Translations under genes and position numbers: made by a program | Notes under the pieces: generated by a model | Told to the model about the DNA's origin: nothing | The model's input: the letters and a program-made list of their open reading frames with translations, nothing else | Databases searched by the model: none | DNA from: Cyanobium sp. Morenito 9A2 | GTDB lineage: Bacteria > Cyanobacteriota > Cyanobacteriia > PCC-6307 > Cyanobiaceae | Direction: 5' to 3' | Assembly: GCF_024345575.1 (NCBI RefSeq) | Contig: NZ_JAGQBJ010000001.1 | Coordinates: 186,001-250,000 of the forward strand | DNA length: 64,000 nucleotides | Shown: piece after piece, positions 40,230 to 55,651 of the stretch | Numbering within the stretch: position 1 is the stretch's first letter | Layout: the number at the start of each line of letters is the position of its first letter

Positions 40230-40703
40230 ATGCCTGCCATCCCGGGCGCCGGCCCGCCGCCGCCGGACCAAGCCCTGCGCTCCAACCTGCACGACCGCGG
40301 GCAGCGGCTCACCCCCCAGCTGCAGCGCGTGCTGGAGTTGTTCGAACGCATTGGTGAAGGCAGCCATCTGAGCGCCGAAGAGGTGCATCAGCGCTTGATC
40401 CGCTCCGATGGCCGCGTTTCTTTGGCCACCGTCTACCGCACCCTGCGGTTGCTGAGTTCCCTAGGGCTGCTGCAGGAGTTGGAGTTGCCCGAAGGTGGCC
40501 GTCGATTCGAGTTGGCGGGCGACGCCCACCGCGACCACCATCATCTGGTTTGTGTGCGCTGCGGCCGCACCGAGGAATTCGAAAGCACCTCCGTGATCAG
40601 CGCCGGCGAGCAGGCGGCCCTGGCCCATGGTTTCCGGCTGCTTGAGTGCGTGCTCAACGTGCGCGGGCTCTGCCCTTCCTGCGCTGTGGCGGAGCGGGAT
40701 TGA
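40230..40703 (+). CDS. fur: Fur-family metalloregulator, probably ferric uptake regulator
   Basis: 157 residues. The winged-helix domain carries QRLTPQLQRVLELFE and the recognition segment VSLATVYRTLRLLSSLGLLQEL, which is shown in part. The regulatory metal site is DAHRDHHHLVCVRCGRTEEFE, and the structural zinc Cys pairs are CVRC and CPSC. This is the full Fur pattern. Because a second Fur-family gene beside znuA (54119) is better read as Zur, and iron genes cluster around this one, Fur is the likely identity. It would repress iron-uptake genes when iron is sufficient. It is transcribed from its own 53-base upstream region. Confidence 0.9.
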   Translation: MPAIPGAGPPPPDQALRSNLHDRGQRLTPQLQRVLELFERIGEGSHLSAEEVHQRLIRSDGRVSLATVYRTLRLLSSLGLLQELELPEGGRRFELAGDAHRDHHHLVCVRCGRTEEFESTSVISAGEQAALAHGFRLLECVLNVRGLCPSCAVAERD

Positions 40704-41095: not shown

Positions 41096-41110
41096 TGAGA
41101 ATCGCTTGCA
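41096..41110. promoter_or_regulatory. Fur-box-like site 1 upstream of Crp/Fnr regulator
   Basis: TGAGAATCGCTTGCA fits the 7-1-7 Fur box (TGATAATNATTATCA) at 10 of 14 defined positions. It lies 73 bases before the regulator start at 41183. Together with site 2 it suggests repression by Fur when iron is sufficient. Confidence 0.45.
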
Positions 41111-41133: not shown

Positions 41134-41148
41134 TGAGAGTCATTCGCA
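41134..41148. promoter_or_regulatory. Fur-box-like site 2 upstream of Crp/Fnr regulator
   Basis: TGAGAGTCATTCGCA matches the same 7-1-7 consensus at 10 of 14 positions. It starts 38 bases after site 1, and the two 17-base segments that begin with TTGAGA resemble each other closely, so they read as paired operators. Confidence 0.45.
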
Positions 41149-41182: not shown

Positions 41183-41776
41183 ATGAGTTTCCGATTCCTC
41201 CCCGATCAGCCTCTCCATCCCGTGCGCATGCCGGTGGGGCAGACAGTCCTGCTGGATCCCACCCTGCGCCCCGGGGGGCGCTGCATCGAGGTGATCGAGG
41301 GTGTGGCGCGGGTCTACTGCCCCTGCGAAGAGACTGAGGGCATGACGATCGCGTTCCTGCAGAGCGGTGATCAGCTCCGCACCGATCGCCTCTGCAGTGA
41401 GGGCGTCTGCGTCGAGGCGCTCACCCCCCTGGTCTTCCGCAGCGACGCCGAGCCCCTGGCTGTCGGCGGTTTCGACCCGGTCAACGAGTGGACCCTGCAA
41501 CTTCTGCGCATCCGCCACCTGGGTTCGGCCGACCAGCGCCTCCAGGCCCTGCTGGCCCTGCTGGTGAACCGCCTGGGGCGCCGCTGCGGCGCCTGGTGCG
41601 AGCTGCCGTTCCGGCTCACCCACGAGCGCATCGGTGAACTGATCGGCACCACCCGGGTCACCAGCACCCGGCTGATCTCCCGCATACGTCAGGCCCGGTT
41701 GCTGGAGGCCCCCGCCGGAGAATGCGGCCTGCGGCTGGCACCGGCGCTGGTGGACTCCGCCCCCCTGGCGGCCTGA
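41183..41776 (+). CDS. Crp/Fnr-family transcriptional regulator, IdiB-like candidate
   Basis: 197 residues. The N-terminal 110 residues are a cupin-like sensory domain (GGRCIEVIEGVARVYCPCEE) without an obvious cyclic-nucleotide motif. The C-terminal helix-turn-helix is typical of Crp/NtcA: FRLTHERIGELIGTTRVTSTRLISRIRQ, given here as overlapping parts LTHERIGELIGTTRV and TSTRLISRIRQ. In Synechococcus elongatus, IdiB is a Crp-type activator of idiA under iron starvation and is Fur-regulated; two Fur-box-like sites here and the futA/idiA homologue in the same region suggest a similar role. That identity is inference. Its stop overlaps the next gene by one base. Confidence 0.85.
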   Translation: MSFRFLPDQPLHPVRMPVGQTVLLDPTLRPGGRCIEVIEGVARVYCPCEETEGMTIAFLQSGDQLRTDRLCSEGVCVEALTPLVFRSDAEPLAVGGFDPVNEWTLQLLRIRHLGSADQRLQALLALLVNRLGRRCGAWCELPFRLTHERIGELIGTTRVTSTRLISRIRQARLLEAPAGECGLRLAPALVDSAPLAA

Positions 41777-42081
41777 TGACTCCATTGCGGCCCCCATCGG
41801 CGCCTCAGCCGTCACAGAGCCTGGTCGGAAGCCTTTGCGGGGCCATGGGGGCCCTGCGCTGCCGTGGCGGGCAGATCCATGCCCAGCTGCAACGCTGTCA
41901 GGACGCCGGATTGCGGGAGCGCCTCGGTCGGGAGTTCGCCGACCTGCAAGGGCGGCGGCGGGAGCTCCAGGGCCGGGTTCGTGTGCTGCAACGCAGCGGG
42001 CTCAAGGATTCCCTGGCCCTGGCTTTCCTCGCGGAGATCAGCCGCCGACCGCTGATCCCGGCTGGGGCGATTCGTTCCTGA
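41776..42081 (+). CDS. Hypothetical helical protein, 101 residues
   Basis: Small, mainly helical protein with no recognised family: LVGSLCGAMGALRC, then a charged segment rich in Arg and Gln (LGREFADLQGRRRELQGR). There is no signal or membrane segment. The TGATG junction with the Crp/Fnr gene indicates coupled translation and a probable functional link to it. Its 3' end overlaps the convergent ferritin gene by 44 bases. Could be a partner of the regulator or unrelated. Confidence 0.6.
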   Translation: MTPLRPPSAPQPSQSLVGSLCGAMGALRCRGGQIHAQLQRCQDAGLRERLGREFADLQGRRRELQGRVRVLQRSGLKDSLALAFLAEISRRPLIPAGAIRS

Positions 42082-42658
42082 GTTCAGCATCAAGAATCAG
42101 CAGGGGGGCCGGTTGCCCCTGGCTGAAGCGAATCCGCCCGAGCAGATGGGCGGTCTGGTCTTCGGCGGCGATCTGTCGGTGCACGATGGGATCGAGGAAC
42201 ACCGTGGTGCGCACATCCCCGGCCCGCTCGGCCCCTTCGTAGAGCTGCTGCAGGGAGGTGGTCACATCGGTCTCCAGTTGAAAGGCCGTCGCGAAGATGT
42301 CCAGGGGCGATGACCAGTTCTGGCGGGGGGCCGGCAACGGGGCCAGTTGCACGGTCTGCCCCCTGGCCACGAGGTAATCGGCGAACTCGGTGGCGTGTTG
42401 TTGTTCTCCCAGGGATTCCTGGTGCAGGTACTGGGCGAACCCCCGCAGGTCCCGTTCGTCAAACCAGATCGCCATGGCCCAGTAGGTGGCGCTGGCCCGT
42501 CGTTCCAGGTTCATGTGTTCCTGAAGGCCCGCCAGAAGAACGTTGTCGAGGGCCTGCGCCATGGCCCGCCCGGCTGGGCCGGTGGCCACTTGGGCGCTGG
42601 GCTCGCCGCTGATCAGTTCGGCTGCGGTCGCGGCATGGAGCGGGTCGGTGGTCGCCAT
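42038..42658 (-). CDS. Ferritin
   Basis: Iron-storage protein, about 206 residues from ATG at 42658; the frame extends to 42718, but the extra residues do not look like ferritin. The ferroxidase-site residues fit the family: EHMNLERRASATYW (Glu and Glu-Arg), FAQYLHQESLGEQQHATEF (Glu, Glu and His) and a later Glu in HRQIAAEDQT. The long C-terminus beyond helix D is unusual and Pro-rich. It would store iron in a 24-meric shell, near the iron regulators. No clear Fur box was seen in its upstream region. It is convergent with the 41776 gene. Confidence 0.88.
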   Translation of the reverse strand: MATTDPLHAATAAELISGEPSAQVATGPAGRAMAQALDNVLLAGLQEHMNLERRASATYWAMAIWFDERDLRGFAQYLHQESLGEQQHATEFADYLVARGQTVQLAPLPAPRQNWSSPLDIFATAFQLETDVTTSLQQLYEGAERAGDVRTTVFLDPIVHRQIAAEDQTAHLLGRIRFSQGQPAPLLILDAELRNESPQPGSAVGG

Positions 42659-42806
42659 CCGTAGGGGCCCCGGGAGGTTGAAGCCTAGGGGGAAGGCGAG
42701 AGTCCAGTGGTGTGCCATTTGCTACCCGGGCTTGTTCACTGGCGAGGATTCCCTGGTGCGATCCGGATTACGGTGAATCCAGAGAATTCATGTTTCAGGC
42801 TTCGCC

Positions 42807-42950
42807 ATGGGAGTGTTCATGCAGGGTCTTTCGGATGAGACGCAGTCATCGGTCAAGCGACTTTTGAGAGCCTTCAAGAAGAAGGGATGCAAGCGCCAGA
42901 AGTGCTCCAAGTGGAAGGGGGGTCGCTGCTGCTGCGGGAATGAATCGTGA
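42807..42950 (+). CDS. Cys- and Lys-rich micropeptide, 47 residues
   Basis: A frame too short for ordinary gene calling, encoding 47 residues from ATG at 42807, or 43 from ATG at 42819, which has a GGGAG ribosome-binding stretch 5 bases upstream and is preferred. The body is LSDETQSSVKRLLRAFKKKG, and a Cys motif follows: a Cys, a second Cys after four residues, then three adjacent Cys (CKRQKC, GGRCCC) near the end. This resembles small metal-binding peptides in composition only; no family is recognised. It lies just upstream of the divergent ferritin gene. The remaining bases of the gap to 43050 show nothing else. Confidence 0.55.
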   Translation: MGVFMQGLSDETQSSVKRLLRAFKKKGCKRQKCSKWKGGRCCCGNES

Positions 42951-43050: not shown

Positions 43051-43287
43051 TCAGAACTGCCGCTCTTCTGGAGAGCCACTGGGCGGCAGGTCAAGCCAGA
43101 GCATCGTTGCGGGATTGGTCGCCTCCAGCATCTCGAGGTGCTCGCCCGTGAGGCAGCGAGCATCCTCCATGTTGCTGAGCGAGAGATGGGCCAGACGCTG
43201 CATGCACCAGTCCCGCAGGTCCGTCAGGTGAAGAATGCGCCGTTGGTCCCTCCTCAGGTTCCAGTGCTCTGGAGTTGTCCCATCCAT
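43051..43287 (-). CDS. Hypothetical protein, about 78 residues
   Basis: Not recognised. From ATG at 43287 the protein is a polar helical sequence with LTDLRDWCMQRLAHLSLSNM and the later GEHLEMLEATNPATMLW. It looks protein-like throughout. The frame opens at 43374, so the N-terminus may be longer. There is no good ribosome-binding site at either start. It lies on the same strand as futB, downstream of it, with a gap of about 125 bases. Confidence 0.45.
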   Translation of the reverse strand: MDGTTPEHWNLRRDQRRILHLTDLRDWCMQRLAHLSLSNMEDARCLTGEHLEMLEATNPATMLWLDLPPSGSPEERQF

Positions 43288-43412
43288 GCCGGTGACTTGA
43301 AGACGGTCTTCATCCTCTTGATCCCTCCGCCCGGGTGACGCCCGGGGATCACCAGGCGATGGATGAAAAGGCACATCCTCCGGCGCTCAACAGCCGAGAC
43401 CCCAGCCCCGCC

Positions 43413-44960
43413 TCAGCCCCCATGGCGGCGGTCCGATTCCAGGCTGGGGATCAGGGCCAGCGAAGCCACCAGACCCAGCATCAGGATCAGCAGGGCGGGC
43501 AGCAGCGCCGCCCCCACCCGTTCGTCGCTGGCGTACTGGAAGACCCGCACCGAGAGCGTGTCGAAATCGAAGGGTCGCAGGGCGAAGGTGAGAGGCAGTT
43601 CCTTCACCGTGTCCACGAACACCAGCAAACCCGCCACGAGCAGGGGCTCCCGCAGCAGGGGCAGGTGGACGCGCAGCAGCACCTGGGGCCAGCTGCAACC
43701 CAGGCTGGTGGCGGCCTCATCGACGCTGGGGGGCAGGCGTTCCAGGGCGGCATCGAGGCCCCCCTTGGCCACCGCCAGGAAGCGATCGCCGTAGCCCCAG
43801 AGCAGCAGCAGCAGCGGGCTGAGGGCCAGTGGTCCACCGATCAGCATCAGCGCCAGGGCCAGCACCGTGCCGGGTATGGCGTAGCCCATGCCAGCACTGA
43901 AACTCAGGCGCTGCAGCAGGGGGGAAGGCAACCAGCGCCGGGCGATCGCCAGCACGAGCCCGGTGGCCACGGTGAGGACCGCCGCGGCGAGGGCCAGGAG
44001 TAAGCTACGCCCGGTGAGCGCCAACAGTTCGCTGGCCGATTCCCCCTGCAACTGGTCCCAGCTCAGGGTGGCCCAGAGCAGGGGCAAGCCGAGGGTGGCC
44101 AGGGGCGGCAGCAGGGTCAGGGTCTGGGCGGCCAGGCGGCGCCAGCCCGCCAGGGGCCAGCGTTGGGGGGCGTCACCCCCCTGGTTCTGGACCCAGCGGC
44201 GGCTGCGGCCCCGCAGCTGGCGCTCGGCCCCCACCAGCAGGCTGACGATCAGCAGCGCCATCAGGGCCAGCCCCACGGCGGCCTCGGGGTTGCCCTCCCC
44301 CTGCCAGCGCTGCAGGATCCCGCTTGAGAGGGTCGGCAACCCCAGCAGTTCCACCGCCCCGAGTTCGTTCACCACTTCCATGCCGGAGAGGGCAAGGCCC
44401 GCCCCGACCGCGGGCAGGGCCATCGGCAAAGCCACCCGCGCGAAGCTGCCCCAGGGGCCCACCCCAAGGCTGCGGCAGGCCTCCAATTGGCGCTGGCCGC
44501 TGGCCGAGAAGCTCTCGGTCGCCAGCAGGAAGACGTAGCTGTAGGTGCTCAGGGTCAGCACCAGCACAGTCCAGCCCAGGCCATGGACCCGCAGCTGCCA
44601 GCGGCTGCCCAGGTCGACCAACGTGGCGGCCAGCAGGTAGCTGGGGGTGGCCAGGGGCAGCAGCTGGGCGATACGCAGCCAGCGGCGCCCGGGAAAGTGG
44701 CAGCAGGCGGTCAACCAGCCGGTGGCCGTGCCCAGAGCCGCCCCGAAAACGCCCACCCCCGCCACAAGGGCCACGGTGTTCAGCACCTGCTCCCGGCCAT
44801 CGGGGCCGAGGGCCAGGGCCGCGGGACCCTCGCCCAGGGCGGCGAAGCCAAGGAGTGCGACGATCGGCGCCAGGGCCAGGGCGCAGAGGAGAAGCACACC
44901 CCCGGCCAGGACACCCCGGCTGGGTTGGACCACGGCGATCGCCTTGCCAGCGGCGGTCAT
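43413..44960 (-). CDS. futB: Ferric iron ABC transporter permease, FutB/SfuB type
   Basis: 515 residues, about 12 membrane helices made of two fused permease halves of six, as in FutB/FbpB. Each half carries the EAA-like loop where the ATPase docks (QRQLEACRSLGVGPWGSFARVALPMA in part, and SVDEAATSLGCSWPQVLLRV). It would form the channel for Fe(III) delivered by FutA. The FutC ATPase is not in this window, so it is encoded elsewhere or supplied by another system. It is divergent from a porin gene across only 30 bases, and FutA lies beyond that porin. The start is ATG at 44960. Confidence 0.9.
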   Translation of the reverse strand: MTAAGKAIAVVQPSRGVLAGGVLLLCALALAPIVALLGFAALGEGPAALALGPDGREQVLNTVALVAGVGVFGAALGTATGWLTACCHFPGRRWLRIAQLLPLATPSYLLAATLVDLGSRWQLRVHGLGWTVLVLTLSTYSYVFLLATESFSASGQRQLEACRSLGVGPWGSFARVALPMALPAVGAGLALSGMEVVNELGAVELLGLPTLSSGILQRWQGEGNPEAAVGLALMALLIVSLLVGAERQLRGRSRRWVQNQGGDAPQRWPLAGWRRLAAQTLTLLPPLATLGLPLLWATLSWDQLQGESASELLALTGRSLLLALAAAVLTVATGLVLAIARRWLPSPLLQRLSFSAGMGYAIPGTVLALALMLIGGPLALSPLLLLLWGYGDRFLAVAKGGLDAALERLPPSVDEAATSLGCSWPQVLLRVHLPLLREPLLVAGLLVFVDTVKELPLTFALRPFDFDTLSVRVFQYASDERVGAALLPALLILMLGLVASLALIPSLESDRRHGG

Positions 44961-46310: not shown

Positions 46311-47393
46311 CTATTTCCAGCCCCCCGCCTCCATCAGCGCCACGGCGGCGCGGTTCTTGGCCCCGAGCCCCTCCACGGTCACCGCATCGGCCTTGAAGGG
46401 TCCGAAGCGTTTCAAGATGGCGTTGTCGCCGTAGCCCTTGAGCGGGTATTCGTGGTTGGCTTCGGCGTAGCCCCGGCCGCCGCTGGGGGAGGCCAGGAAC
46501 TCGATCAGCCGGATGGCCGCCTTGGGGTTGCGGGAGTGGCGGGTGACGCCGGCGCCACTGATGTTGACGTGGGCGGGGTTGGGGAACACCACCTTGAGGT
46601 TGCGGGCCAGGGCCTGGTCCTGGGCGCCCCCTTCACCGGAGAGCATCCGGGCCACGTAGTAGGTGTTCACCACCCCCACACCGCACTCCCCTGTGGCCAC
46701 GGCCCGGGCCAGGGGTGTGTCGGAGGTGAAGAAGGGTTGGGTGACGTTGGACACCACGCCCTTGATCCACTGCCGGGTGGCGGCCTCACCGCGCTGGAGC
46801 AGTTGATCCGCCACCAGGGACTGGTTGTAGACGCTCTTGCGATCCCGCAGGCAGAGCTTGCCCTTGAGGCCGGGACGCGCCAGATCGGCGTAGGTGCGGA
46901 TCGAGGCGGGATTCACCTGTTTGGGGTTCACCACCACGAAGCGCACCCGCCGCGTGAGCGCGTACCAGCGGCCCTTGGAATCGCGCAGGTTCACGGGCAC
47001 GTCCCGAAGTAGGGCGGCGGAGCGGGCGCTCTGAAAGGCGCCCTGGGCGCTGGCTTTTTCCAGGCGGGCGGCGTCCACGAGCACAAGCACATCGGCGGGG
47101 CTGGCCTTGCCCTCACTGCGGAGGCGCTCGATCAGGGCATCGTCCTTGCCCTCCAGCAGATTCACCTTGATGCCGGTGCGGGCGGTGAACTGGCGGTAGA
47201 GCTCCTTGTCGGTGTTGTAGTGGCGTCCGGAGTAAACCCCGATTTCGGCCGGGGGGGCTTTGCCGCTCCCCTGCTGGGCCAGGGCCGCCGCCGCCAGAGC
47301 GGTGGCCGCGAGGGAGGAGCCGATCAGGCCCAGGGGAACAAGGGTGCGGCGGGTCCTTGCGATGGCTTGAACAGCCACCCAGATCTCAGGCAT
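46311..47393 (-). CDS. futA: Periplasmic ferric-iron-binding protein, FutA/IdiA type
   Basis: About 360 residues from ATG at 47393; the frame extends to 47417. The N-terminus has a twin-arginine-like start (RTRRTLVPLGLIGSS) before a hydrophobic stretch, as in IdiA. The mature part is a transferrin-type Fe(III)-binding protein: IGVYSGRHYNTDKELY, KGKLCLRDRKSVYNQS, GVGVVNTYYVARM with the adjacent Tyr ligands, and PNPAHVNISGAGVTRHS. It would pass iron to FutB. It lies convergent to the OprB-type porin with a 9-base gap. Fur control is likely by analogy, but no clear Fur box was seen upstream. Confidence 0.93.
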   Translation of the reverse strand: MPEIWVAVQAIARTRRTLVPLGLIGSSLAATALAAAALAQQGSGKAPPAEIGVYSGRHYNTDKELYRQFTARTGIKVNLLEGKDDALIERLRSEGKASPADVLVLVDAARLEKASAQGAFQSARSAALLRDVPVNLRDSKGRWYALTRRVRFVVVNPKQVNPASIRTYADLARPGLKGKLCLRDRKSVYNQSLVADQLLQRGEAATRQWIKGVVSNVTQPFFTSDTPLARAVATGECGVGVVNTYYVARMLSGEGGAQDQALARNLKVVFPNPAHVNISGAGVTRHSRNPKAAIRLIEFLASPSGGRGYAEANHEYPLKGYGDNAILKRFGPFKADAVTVEGLGAKNRAAVALMEAGGWK

Positions 47394-47526
47394 TCGGGCA
47401 GGGGTCGGCGGACCCATTCACTGCCAGGAACCTAAAAAACCTTCAGCCGAAAGACCCGGCGCGATGTTGCGGGACAGCGTGACGATTGTTACGCCTGGAG
47501 GGCTGCAGAGAATTAGGAGGCCCCGA

Positions 47527-54118: not shown

Positions 54119-54523
54119 TCAGCCCTGCTGGCGCTGCTGGCAGAGGGGGCAGAGCCCGAAGAACTCCAGGGTGTGGAACAGCAGTTGGAAGCCGTCCAGC
54201 TGCTGGGGGCTGAGGTCGTCGCCGTGCATCGGGCAGGCAGGCAGGGGCACGGTGCGGCCACAGTCGACACAGGTGAGGTGGTGCTCGTCGCGCTCGGTGG
54301 GGGCGAACAGGGCCTCTCCACTGGGCAGGTGCCGGCAGCGCACCAGCCCCCGCTGCTGCAGTTGGCGCAGGTGGCGGTAGACCGTCGCCAGGCCCATGGC
54401 CTGGGGGGTGTTGCGCAGTTGGGCGTGGAGGTCCTGGCCGGAGAGCTCGTGGGCGGCCCGGCGCAGCTGCTCCAGCAGGTGCTGCTGCTTGCCGTTCGGA
54501 GTGGCGGGTGGGGAAGCCTCCAT
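54119..54523 (-). CDS. zur: Zinc-uptake regulator of the Fur family
   Basis: About 134 residues from ATG at 54523; the frame extends to 54592. The DNA-binding part is TPQAMGLATVYRHLRQLQQRGLV (shown in part). Metal sites are EHHLTCVDCGRT and CPLCQQ (CxxC pairs), and HGDD lies between. It is divergent from znuA, and a palindrome in the gap fits a Zur box, which supports Zur over Fur. It would repress znuA and probably the rest of the zinc genes when zinc is sufficient. The protein is short at the C-terminus compared with Fur, as Zur often is. Confidence 0.87.
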   Translation of the reverse strand: MEASPPATPNGKQQHLLEQLRRAAHELSGQDLHAQLRNTPQAMGLATVYRHLRQLQQRGLVRCRHLPSGEALFAPTERDEHHLTCVDCGRTVPLPACPMHGDDLSPQQLDGFQLLFHTLEFFGLCPLCQQRQQG

Positions 54524-54582
54524 GGGAGGAATCCTATGGAGCGGGGCGAGGGCGCTGGACCGGGGACGTCTTCGGGATAGAG

Positions 54583-54597
54583 TGAGTATCATTCTCA
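54583..54597. promoter_or_regulatory. Zur-box-like palindrome between zur and znuA
   Basis: TGAGTATCATTCTCA, a 7-1-7 palindrome with one mismatch between the arms, matching the Fur/Zur consensus TGATAATNATTATCA at 11 of 14 positions. It lies 60 bases upstream of the zur ATG at 54523 and 50 bases upstream of the znuA ATG at 54647, so one site could serve both divergent promoters. Confidence 0.65.
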
Positions 54598-54646
54598 GTC
54601 AAGGGTGGGCCTCCGGCCGGCGCCCGCTCCTTCGATCCGGCCCCCC

Positions 54647-55651
54647 ATGCCCCACCAGAGCCACAACCCGCCCACGCCGGCACCGGCCGGGATGCGTGGG
54701 CGGACCCGGTGCGCCCTGGGGCTGGTGATCCTGGGCGGCTGGCTGGCGGGATGCCTGCCCAGGCCGATCGCCTCCACCCCCGGCAAGCCCCTGGCCGTGG
54801 TCACCACCTTCCTGCCGATCACCGCGTTCACGCGGGCCGTGGCGGGCGACTGCGCCACGGTCACCGCCCTGATTCCCCCCGGCGTGGGGCCCCATGATTT
54901 CCAGGCCACGCCGAGCGATCTGTCCCGCCTTCGCCAGGCCGACGTGCTCATCAAGAATGGATTGGGGGTCGAGGGTTTCCTTGACAAGCTCATCGCCGGT
55001 GCAGAAAACCCGCGCCTGCGGGTGATCGACACCAGCCAGGGCGTCCCCACGCTGACCCTCCCCGAGGCGGGCGGTGGTGATCAGTCAGGAGCTGAGCAGG
55101 CCGAGCACGGGGGCCATGGCCACGGCCACGGCGAAGTCAACCCCCACATCTGGCTGGATCCGCTGCGGGCGGTGCAGCAGGTGAACACCATCCGCGATGG
55201 CCTGATCGCCGCCAGGCCCGCCTGCAGGGCAGGCTTCACCGCCCGTGCGGCACGCTTCACGGCCGAGCTGCAGGGTCTGAACACTGCCCTGGCGGCCCAG
55301 CTCAAGCCCTACGCCGGCAAGACGTTCGTGGCCTTCCATGACTTCGCCCCCTACTTCGCCGAGCGTTACGGGCTCAAGGCCACCTTTGTGGTCGATGTCC
55401 CTGAGGAGAACCCAACCCCAGCCGATCTCAGGCGGGTGGCGCTCCTGGCCCAGGCCACCCAGCTCAAGGCCCTGCTCAGCGAGCCCCAGGAGGGGAGTGG
55501 TTCCTTCGAGGCCCTGGCAAATGACCTGGGGGTGAAGGTGATTCCGTTCGATTCGCTCGAGACGGGCCCCGACACGGCCGCGACGCCGGGCGCCTACATC
55601 AGCACCTTGCGCCGCAACGCCTCGAACCTGGTCAGGGCTTTCGGGGGCTGA
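54647..55651 (+). CDS. znuA: Zinc ABC transporter substrate-binding lipoprotein
   Basis: 334 residues from ATG at 54647 (a GTG at 54605 is possible). A lipobox (LGGWLAGC) precedes the mature chain. The cluster A-I ligands fit ZnuA: GVGPHDFQATPSD (His), the His/Gly-rich loop HGGHGHGHGE, NPHIWLDP (His), and FVAFHDFAPYFAERYGL (His). It captures zinc in the periplasm and hands it to ZnuB. It starts the operon with znuC, 30 bases before its ATG, and znuB, and is divergent from zur behind a Zur-box-like site. Confidence 0.94.
   Translation: MPHQSHNPPTPAPAGMRGRTRCALGLVILGGWLAGCLPRPIASTPGKPLAVVTTFLPITAFTRAVAGDCATVTALIPPGVGPHDFQATPSDLSRLRQADVLIKNGLGVEGFLDKLIAGAENPRLRVIDTSQGVPTLTLPEAGGGDQSGAEQAEHGGHGHGHGEVNPHIWLDPLRAVQQVNTIRDGLIAARPACRAGFTARAARFTAELQGLNTALAAQLKPYAGKTFVAFHDFAPYFAERYGLKATFVVDVPEENPTPADLRRVALLAQATQLKALLSEPQEGSGSFEALANDLGVKVIPFDSLETGPDTAATPGAYISTLRRNASNLVRAFGG

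Follow-up and report, generated by a model that had tools for sequence, protein, structure and literature searches.

The short open reading frame (ORF) that lies in the gap upstream of a ferritin gene belongs to a genuine gene family that is confined to Cyanobiaceae. It is best described as a member of a new, uncharacterized family of ferritin-associated microproteins in these bacteria. In the window (the whole stretch of 64,000 nucleotides analyzed here), the microprotein gene occupies positions 42807-42950 (+), with its stop codon at 42948-42950, and encodes 47 amino acids from ATG 42807 or 43 amino acids from ATG 42819; the assignment is based on its relatives and on purifying selection. 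The translation of the ORF at 42807-42950 (+) is MGVFMQGLSDETQSSVKRLLRAFKKKGCKRQKCSKWKGGRCCCGNES, which contains five Cys residues and has a computed pI of 9.9 and a computed charge of approximately +8. The gene is divergent from the ferritin gene, and the gap is about 100 nt in the window. The pattern C-x4-C-x7-C-x-C occurred once in the six frames of the window, compared with a mean of 0.05 after shuffling.

The start codon was considered from two sides. A preliminary description of this DNA had noted a ribosome-binding stretch before ATG 42819, and a Shine–Dalgarno-like GGAG was indeed read from the sequence at 42810-42813 (+), with a 5-nt spacer to that ATG. The first Cys residue lies 27 codons after ATG 42807 and 23 codons after ATG 42819, and the commonest distance from the start to the first Cys in the relatives is 25–28 codons. 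Either start may be used: judged by the spacing in the relatives, 42807 is slightly better, and 42819 is favored by its Shine–Dalgarno sequence, which is better than that at 42807.

Using tblastn with the 47-residue query, relatives at E ≤ 0.01 were found in 277 of 400 genomes of Cyanobiaceae, representing 49 of 59 genera and including Synechococcus, Cyanobium, Prochlorococcus, and Aphanothece. In a class-wide profile search, the matches fell in Cyanobiaceae, and the other cyanobacterial families gave only one marginal match (E = 0.007). No match to the microprotein was found among the viral contigs and phage records searched, and a phage or mobile origin was rejected on this basis. The family signature is KKKxC-x4-CS-x-WKGG-x-C-x-C, and the length of the family members is 38–50 amino acids. 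In the alignment, the codons of the invariant core, C-x4-C-S-x-W-x-G-x2-C-x-C, correspond to 42888-42935 (+) of the window (C24 to C39 in the numbering of the 43-residue form). Seven positions were invariant in 35 relatives (C24, C29, S30, W32, G34, C37, and C39), and Lys or Arg occupies most positions between the invariant residues, making the conserved core very basic. The five Cys residues described previously are thus present in the copy in the window, but they are not conserved as five: four are invariant, within a span of 16 residues, and the fifth, C38 in the middle of CCC, varies among the 35 relatives.

The preliminary description had named a tBLASTn search of relatives as its own test, and the Cys pattern held in it: the four Cys residues were kept in all 29 loci, which were fetched by tblastn with the Cys pattern not used. 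Across 99 distinct core sequences, third codon positions carried 61% of the differences, and the nonsynonymous/synonymous (omega-like) ratio was 0.036 in the frame of the gene, compared with 2.2 and 2.7 in the other two frames. The earlier claim of a Cys-rich ORF of 43–47 residues upstream of ferritin was therefore borne out, in that the ORF is real, widely conserved in the family, and under strong purifying selection. The DNA match across genomes lay largely within 42875-42937, i.e., only in the Cys half of the frame. We also considered an RNA element and rejected it, because there was no Rfam match in the window and the DNA match covers only this half.

Searches of Pfam, NCBIfam, and the PDB identified no relative of the microprotein or of its alignment. 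Neither the microprotein nor any of its 35 relatives matched Fer2_BFD (PF04324), and no match to the metallothionein domain of Pfam was obtained for the microprotein or its relatives. One of the 35 relatives matched DUF1540 (PF07561) weakly, at a level that is not significant (E = 0.03). An AlphaFold2 model gave no confident fold (pLDDT 62, pTM 0.26); at low confidence, it places a helix at the N-terminus and a small hairpin about the Cys core. The motif strings of the microprotein were absent from open-access papers, as were the MED4 and MIT9313 locus tags that were tried. MED4 has been re-examined for missed small ORFs (PMC2518516), and the microprotein may already be annotated as a hypothetical protein in some genomes. 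The microprotein would also be an example of a functional gene family missing from Pfam and NCBIfam, probably owing to its small size.

In the window, the microprotein gene is part of an iron island that contains a Fur-family regulator, a CRP-family regulator, ferritin, the microprotein, an iron-type ABC permease, a porin, and a substrate-binding protein. The Fur-family regulator is at 40230-40703 (+) (Pfam FUR, E = 4.5e-31) and the CRP-family regulator, which is kept in the island, is at 41183-41776 (+) (HTH_Crp_2, E = 3.5e-8). The permease at 43413-44960 (-) (BPD_transp_1) and the substrate-binding protein at 46311-47417 (-) (SBP_bac families) were assigned to the iron type by context and synteny, as FutB-like and FutA/IdiA-like, respectively. 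Two further ORFs were observed in this region. One, of 119 residues at 41722-42081 (+), overlaps both the CRP-family gene and the ferritin gene at their ends; its tblastn relatives are found at the corresponding position of many island loci (e.g., 53% in L113, 56% in L131, and 40% in L154), and its best Pfam match, to RsiG (E = 0.44), was not significant. The other, of 107 residues at 43051-43374 (-), had no Pfam match, and its tblastn relatives (37–70%) lie near the iron island in several genomes (e.g., L191, L217, and L168). A second Fur-family gene at 54119-54592 (-), probably Zur by eye, is divergent from a gene for a ZnuA-like metal-binding protein at 54605-55651 (+), with a Fur/Zur-type box (13/14) at 54583-54597.

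The link between the microprotein and ferritin is strong. The divergent neighbor at 42038-42718 (-) is a ferritin (PF00210; Pfam Ferritin, E = 1.6e-28) and, from co-occurrence, the presumed partner. We examined neighborhoods of up to 14 kb in 80 stretches and scored adjacency for 74 microprotein copies. A ferritin gene was located ≤ 600 nt from 55 of the 74 copies, in divergent orientation in 48 and in convergent orientation in seven, and the seven convergent copies adjoin more distant ferritins. Another 15 copies were ≤ 600 nt from the CRP, Fur, permease, or substrate-binding genes of the same island. When 101 Cyanobiaceae genomes were compared, 69 had both genes, 27 had neither, two had only the microprotein, and three had only the ferritin (Fisher p = 5.8e-19, in a test that treats related genomes as independent). 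Both genomes with only the microprotein were about 65% complete, and the three with only the ferritin include one complete genome, G004, which lacks an intact microprotein gene. The class without either gene recurs within genera that have both elsewhere, namely the genus of the window (G000 vs. G001), g25, g35, g46, g48, and g49. Because the two genes are usually adjacent, some of these joint losses may be single deletions.

The neighboring CRP and transporter genes are often retained where both the microprotein and the ferritin are missing. In a set of 20 genomes without the microprotein, 19 also lacked this ferritin and only G004 retained it, whereas the CRP-family gene was retained in 11 of the 20 and both transporter genes were retained in 8 of 10 examined islands of such genomes. 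In G046, G048, and G082, the CRP gene directly adjoins the permease gene; in other genomes, the ferritin and the microprotein lie between them. In Cyanobium-type genomes, the microprotein stays between CRP and permease, and the ferritin is off-site, elsewhere in the genome. Another PF00210 protein was present in 16 of the 20 microprotein-less genomes (Dps and bacterioferritin classes not being separated here), so the link holds for this ferritin class only. The computed pI values of the two proteins, 9.9 for the microprotein and 4.8–5.1 for the ferritin, correspond to opposite charges. Several marine Synechococcus and Prochlorococcus carry an unusual ferritin, SynFtn, whose homologues occur almost exclusively in these marine groups (PMC8743623). 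The SynFtn-type ferritins have a phylogenetic range similar to that of the microprotein, which is confined to the same family, and they are its presumed partner, not its relative.

We next consider the promoters, which were scored with a strict cut-off of ≥ 12/14 for a Fur-type box. In many loci of Prochlorococcus and marine Synechococcus, the Fur-family box TATAATGAGAATSAATCTCARTTGC is found about 25–45 nt before the ATG of the microprotein and overlaps the −10 element, as does the consensus of the promoter box, TATAATGAGAATSAATCTCA. A Fur-type box was found upstream of 27 of 79 microprotein genes, compared with about two expected from the box density in the same loci. Such a box also precedes the CRP gene in 20 of 64 cases (about a third), and in the window two tandem Fur-family boxes were found by box scoring before the CRP-family gene, at 41096-41110 (+) (11/14) and 41134-41148 (+) (12/14). 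No significant Fur box was found for the microprotein copy in the window (score 8/14, p = 0.87), and most freshwater relatives likewise lack a significant one. At the place where the relatives have the Fur-type box, the window has an imperfect palindrome, TGAATCC-AGA-GAATTCA (42774-42790), which is not a significant match and was rejected as a Fur box because its 7-3-7 spacing is wrong. In Synechococcus WH8102, Zur has been described as repressing from a box that likewise covers the −10 (PMC9337993). The Fur consensus fits most microprotein promoters (12–13 of 14) better than the Zur consensus does. Given an operator of the Fur family over the −10 in many marine lineages, repression with ample iron and induction with scarce iron would be expected. 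Since the boxes occur in marine relatives and none is significant in the window, we predict low-iron induction of the microprotein for the marine lineages only.

Copies were also observed outside the standard setting. A second version of the microprotein, of only about 28 residues (MPDKKKKKKCKKKKCSNWKGGKCICYGQ), occurs away from ferritin in Prochlorococcus-type genomes (L221:6648-6695 (+) and L207:7007-7054 (-)), and genome G078 holds both this and the standard version. In another Prochlorococcus locus (L136:4010-4057 (+)), a Cys core without a standard start codon lies just after two genes that, by eye, are of the chlorophyll-binding Pcb/IsiA type. In G062, the microprotein (L148:7052-7099 (+)) is located outside the iron island, convergent with a gene that is catalase-peroxidase-like by eye, and is preceded by a strong Fur-type box (13/14).

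The interpretation in the preliminary description was partly supported. Of the three roles that it had left open (metal binding, secretion, or toxicity), metal binding is the best, the four invariant Cys residues, the iron island, and the tracking of ferritin all pointing in this direction. We infer metal binding, docking, the direction of regulation, and iron release. With slightly less than even confidence, we propose that the microprotein is an iron-starvation-induced, metal-binding partner of ferritin that aids the release of iron as Bfd does, while being unrelated to Bfd. According to this proposal, the Fur-family operator over the −10 in many marine lineages would keep the gene off when iron is plentiful and switch it on at shortage; the four invariant Cys residues would hold one metal center (Fe or an Fe–S cluster, or Zn); the Lys-rich basic body would dock on the acidic ferritin (pI about 5); and the microprotein would promote the withdrawal of ferritin iron at starvation, a Bfd-like role for ferritin. 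More tentatively, the family might represent a kind of factor for ferritin release that has not been described before in picocyanobacteria or elsewhere: a starvation-induced protein of 38–50 residues, with a new four-Cys metal site, that stands in for Bfd in the picocyanobacteria. Iron is limiting for marine Synechococcus and Prochlorococcus across large ocean areas, and no partner of SynFtn in iron release was found in the literature. If the proposal is true, the microprotein would give some of the ocean's most abundant phototrophs access to the iron in their ferritin. With a four-Cys microprotein that tracks ferritin and is probably induced at starvation, the question of how these cells recover stored iron becomes directly testable.

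Other explanations of the family were weighed against this proposal. The same ferritin link, the four invariant Cys residues, and the basic charge facing an acidic ferritin would suit an iron metallochaperone whose four Cys residues bring Fe(II) to ferritin for loading or hand over iron released from it, with no electron transfer. We regard this as unlikely, because a Fur-type box that covers the −10, as in marine relatives, implies that the gene is expressed under iron scarcity and not during storage, and because labile Fe(II) is not usually carried by a site made up of Cys residues alone. The microprotein could instead be a nucleic-acid binder resembling a zinc knuckle, a Lys-rich Cys mini-domain that tunes mRNAs or the CRP-family regulator in an iron-sparing response; the very basic conserved core, the two neighboring regulators, and the shared Fur-type boxes would agree with this. 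However, the presence of the microprotein follows that of ferritin much more closely than that of CRP, as the 20 microprotein-less genomes show (CRP in 11, ferritin only in G004), and we consider such a role quite unlikely. A metallothionein-type metal buffer, or a zinc protein under Zur with a Zur box as its operator and Zn bound in zinc homeostasis, is improbable. Fur and Zur boxes are similar, and several microprotein promoters score 13–14 of 16 against the cyanobacterial Zur consensus (PMC9337993), but the Fur consensus is better in most promoters, the gene neighbors are ferritin and a Fut-like transporter and not znu genes, and there are only four conserved Cys residues and no Pfam metallothionein match.

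A secreted or toxic peptide had been suggested earlier, and the product is small, cationic, and Cys-rich; a ribosomally made antimicrobial would be one such peptide. No leader signature of a RiPP or bacteriocin was seen, the neighbors in most loci are Fur, CRP, ferritin, and an iron-type transporter, and no export, modification, or immunity genes were found beside the microprotein gene. Together with the strong purifying selection on a housekeeping-like gene (ratio 0.036), the presence and ferritin co-occurrence across the family, and the lack of a match in phage records or viral contigs, this leaves the suggestion unsupported and very improbable. A chance ORF in the intergenic gap was considered because GC-rich DNA contains many short ORFs (85 of ≥ 25 residues in 6.5 kb); it is refuted by the conservation in 277 of 400 genomes and the dominance of silent changes, and its probability is negligible. 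Conservation and codon-level selection together indicate that the microprotein gene is real and not a chance ORF.

The proposed ferritin partner can be compared with two known kinds of small Cys-rich protein. Like the metallothioneins SmtA and BmtA, it is small, Cys-rich, and cyanobacterial, but it has four conserved Cys residues and these proteins have about nine, and its context is ferritin and iron rather than zinc. The metallothionein domain carries numerous Cys residues, in CxC/CxxC pairs. With only four invariant Cys and no Pfam match, the identification as a bacterial metallothionein was rejected. Bfd is a small [2Fe-2S] protein that is encoded next to bacterioferritin (bfr), is expressed differently from it, and reduces the bacterioferritin core at low iron (PMC7762939, PMC12363616). 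When 19 microprotein-bearing genomes were tested, 18 had no Bfd domain, and the sole match, in the remaining genome, is part of a 928-residue frame. The Cys ligands of the [2Fe-2S] cluster of Bfd are arranged as CxC ... CxxC in a protein of about 65 residues, whereas the microprotein, of 38–50 residues, has the order C-x4-C-x7-C-x-C within 16 residues; to our knowledge, this spacing matches no known ferredoxin or rubredoxin. The microprotein also differs from Bfd in having no sequence relationship to it (no PF04324 match), in being confined to Cyanobiaceae, and in having a partner that is no heme bacterioferritin. With neither the domain nor the ligand pattern of Bfd present, the identification as Bfd itself was rejected. 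Bfd works through the heme of bacterioferritin, and the SynFtn-type partners are presumably not heme ferritins, so the analogy may not extend to the electron path. The likeness consists in a small, Cys-rich protein with four Cys residues as presumed ligands, encoded beside a ferritin-class gene (in 55 of 74 copies, as above) and, in marine relatives, expected from its Fur-type operator to be induced at low iron. At best, the microprotein may work like Bfd.
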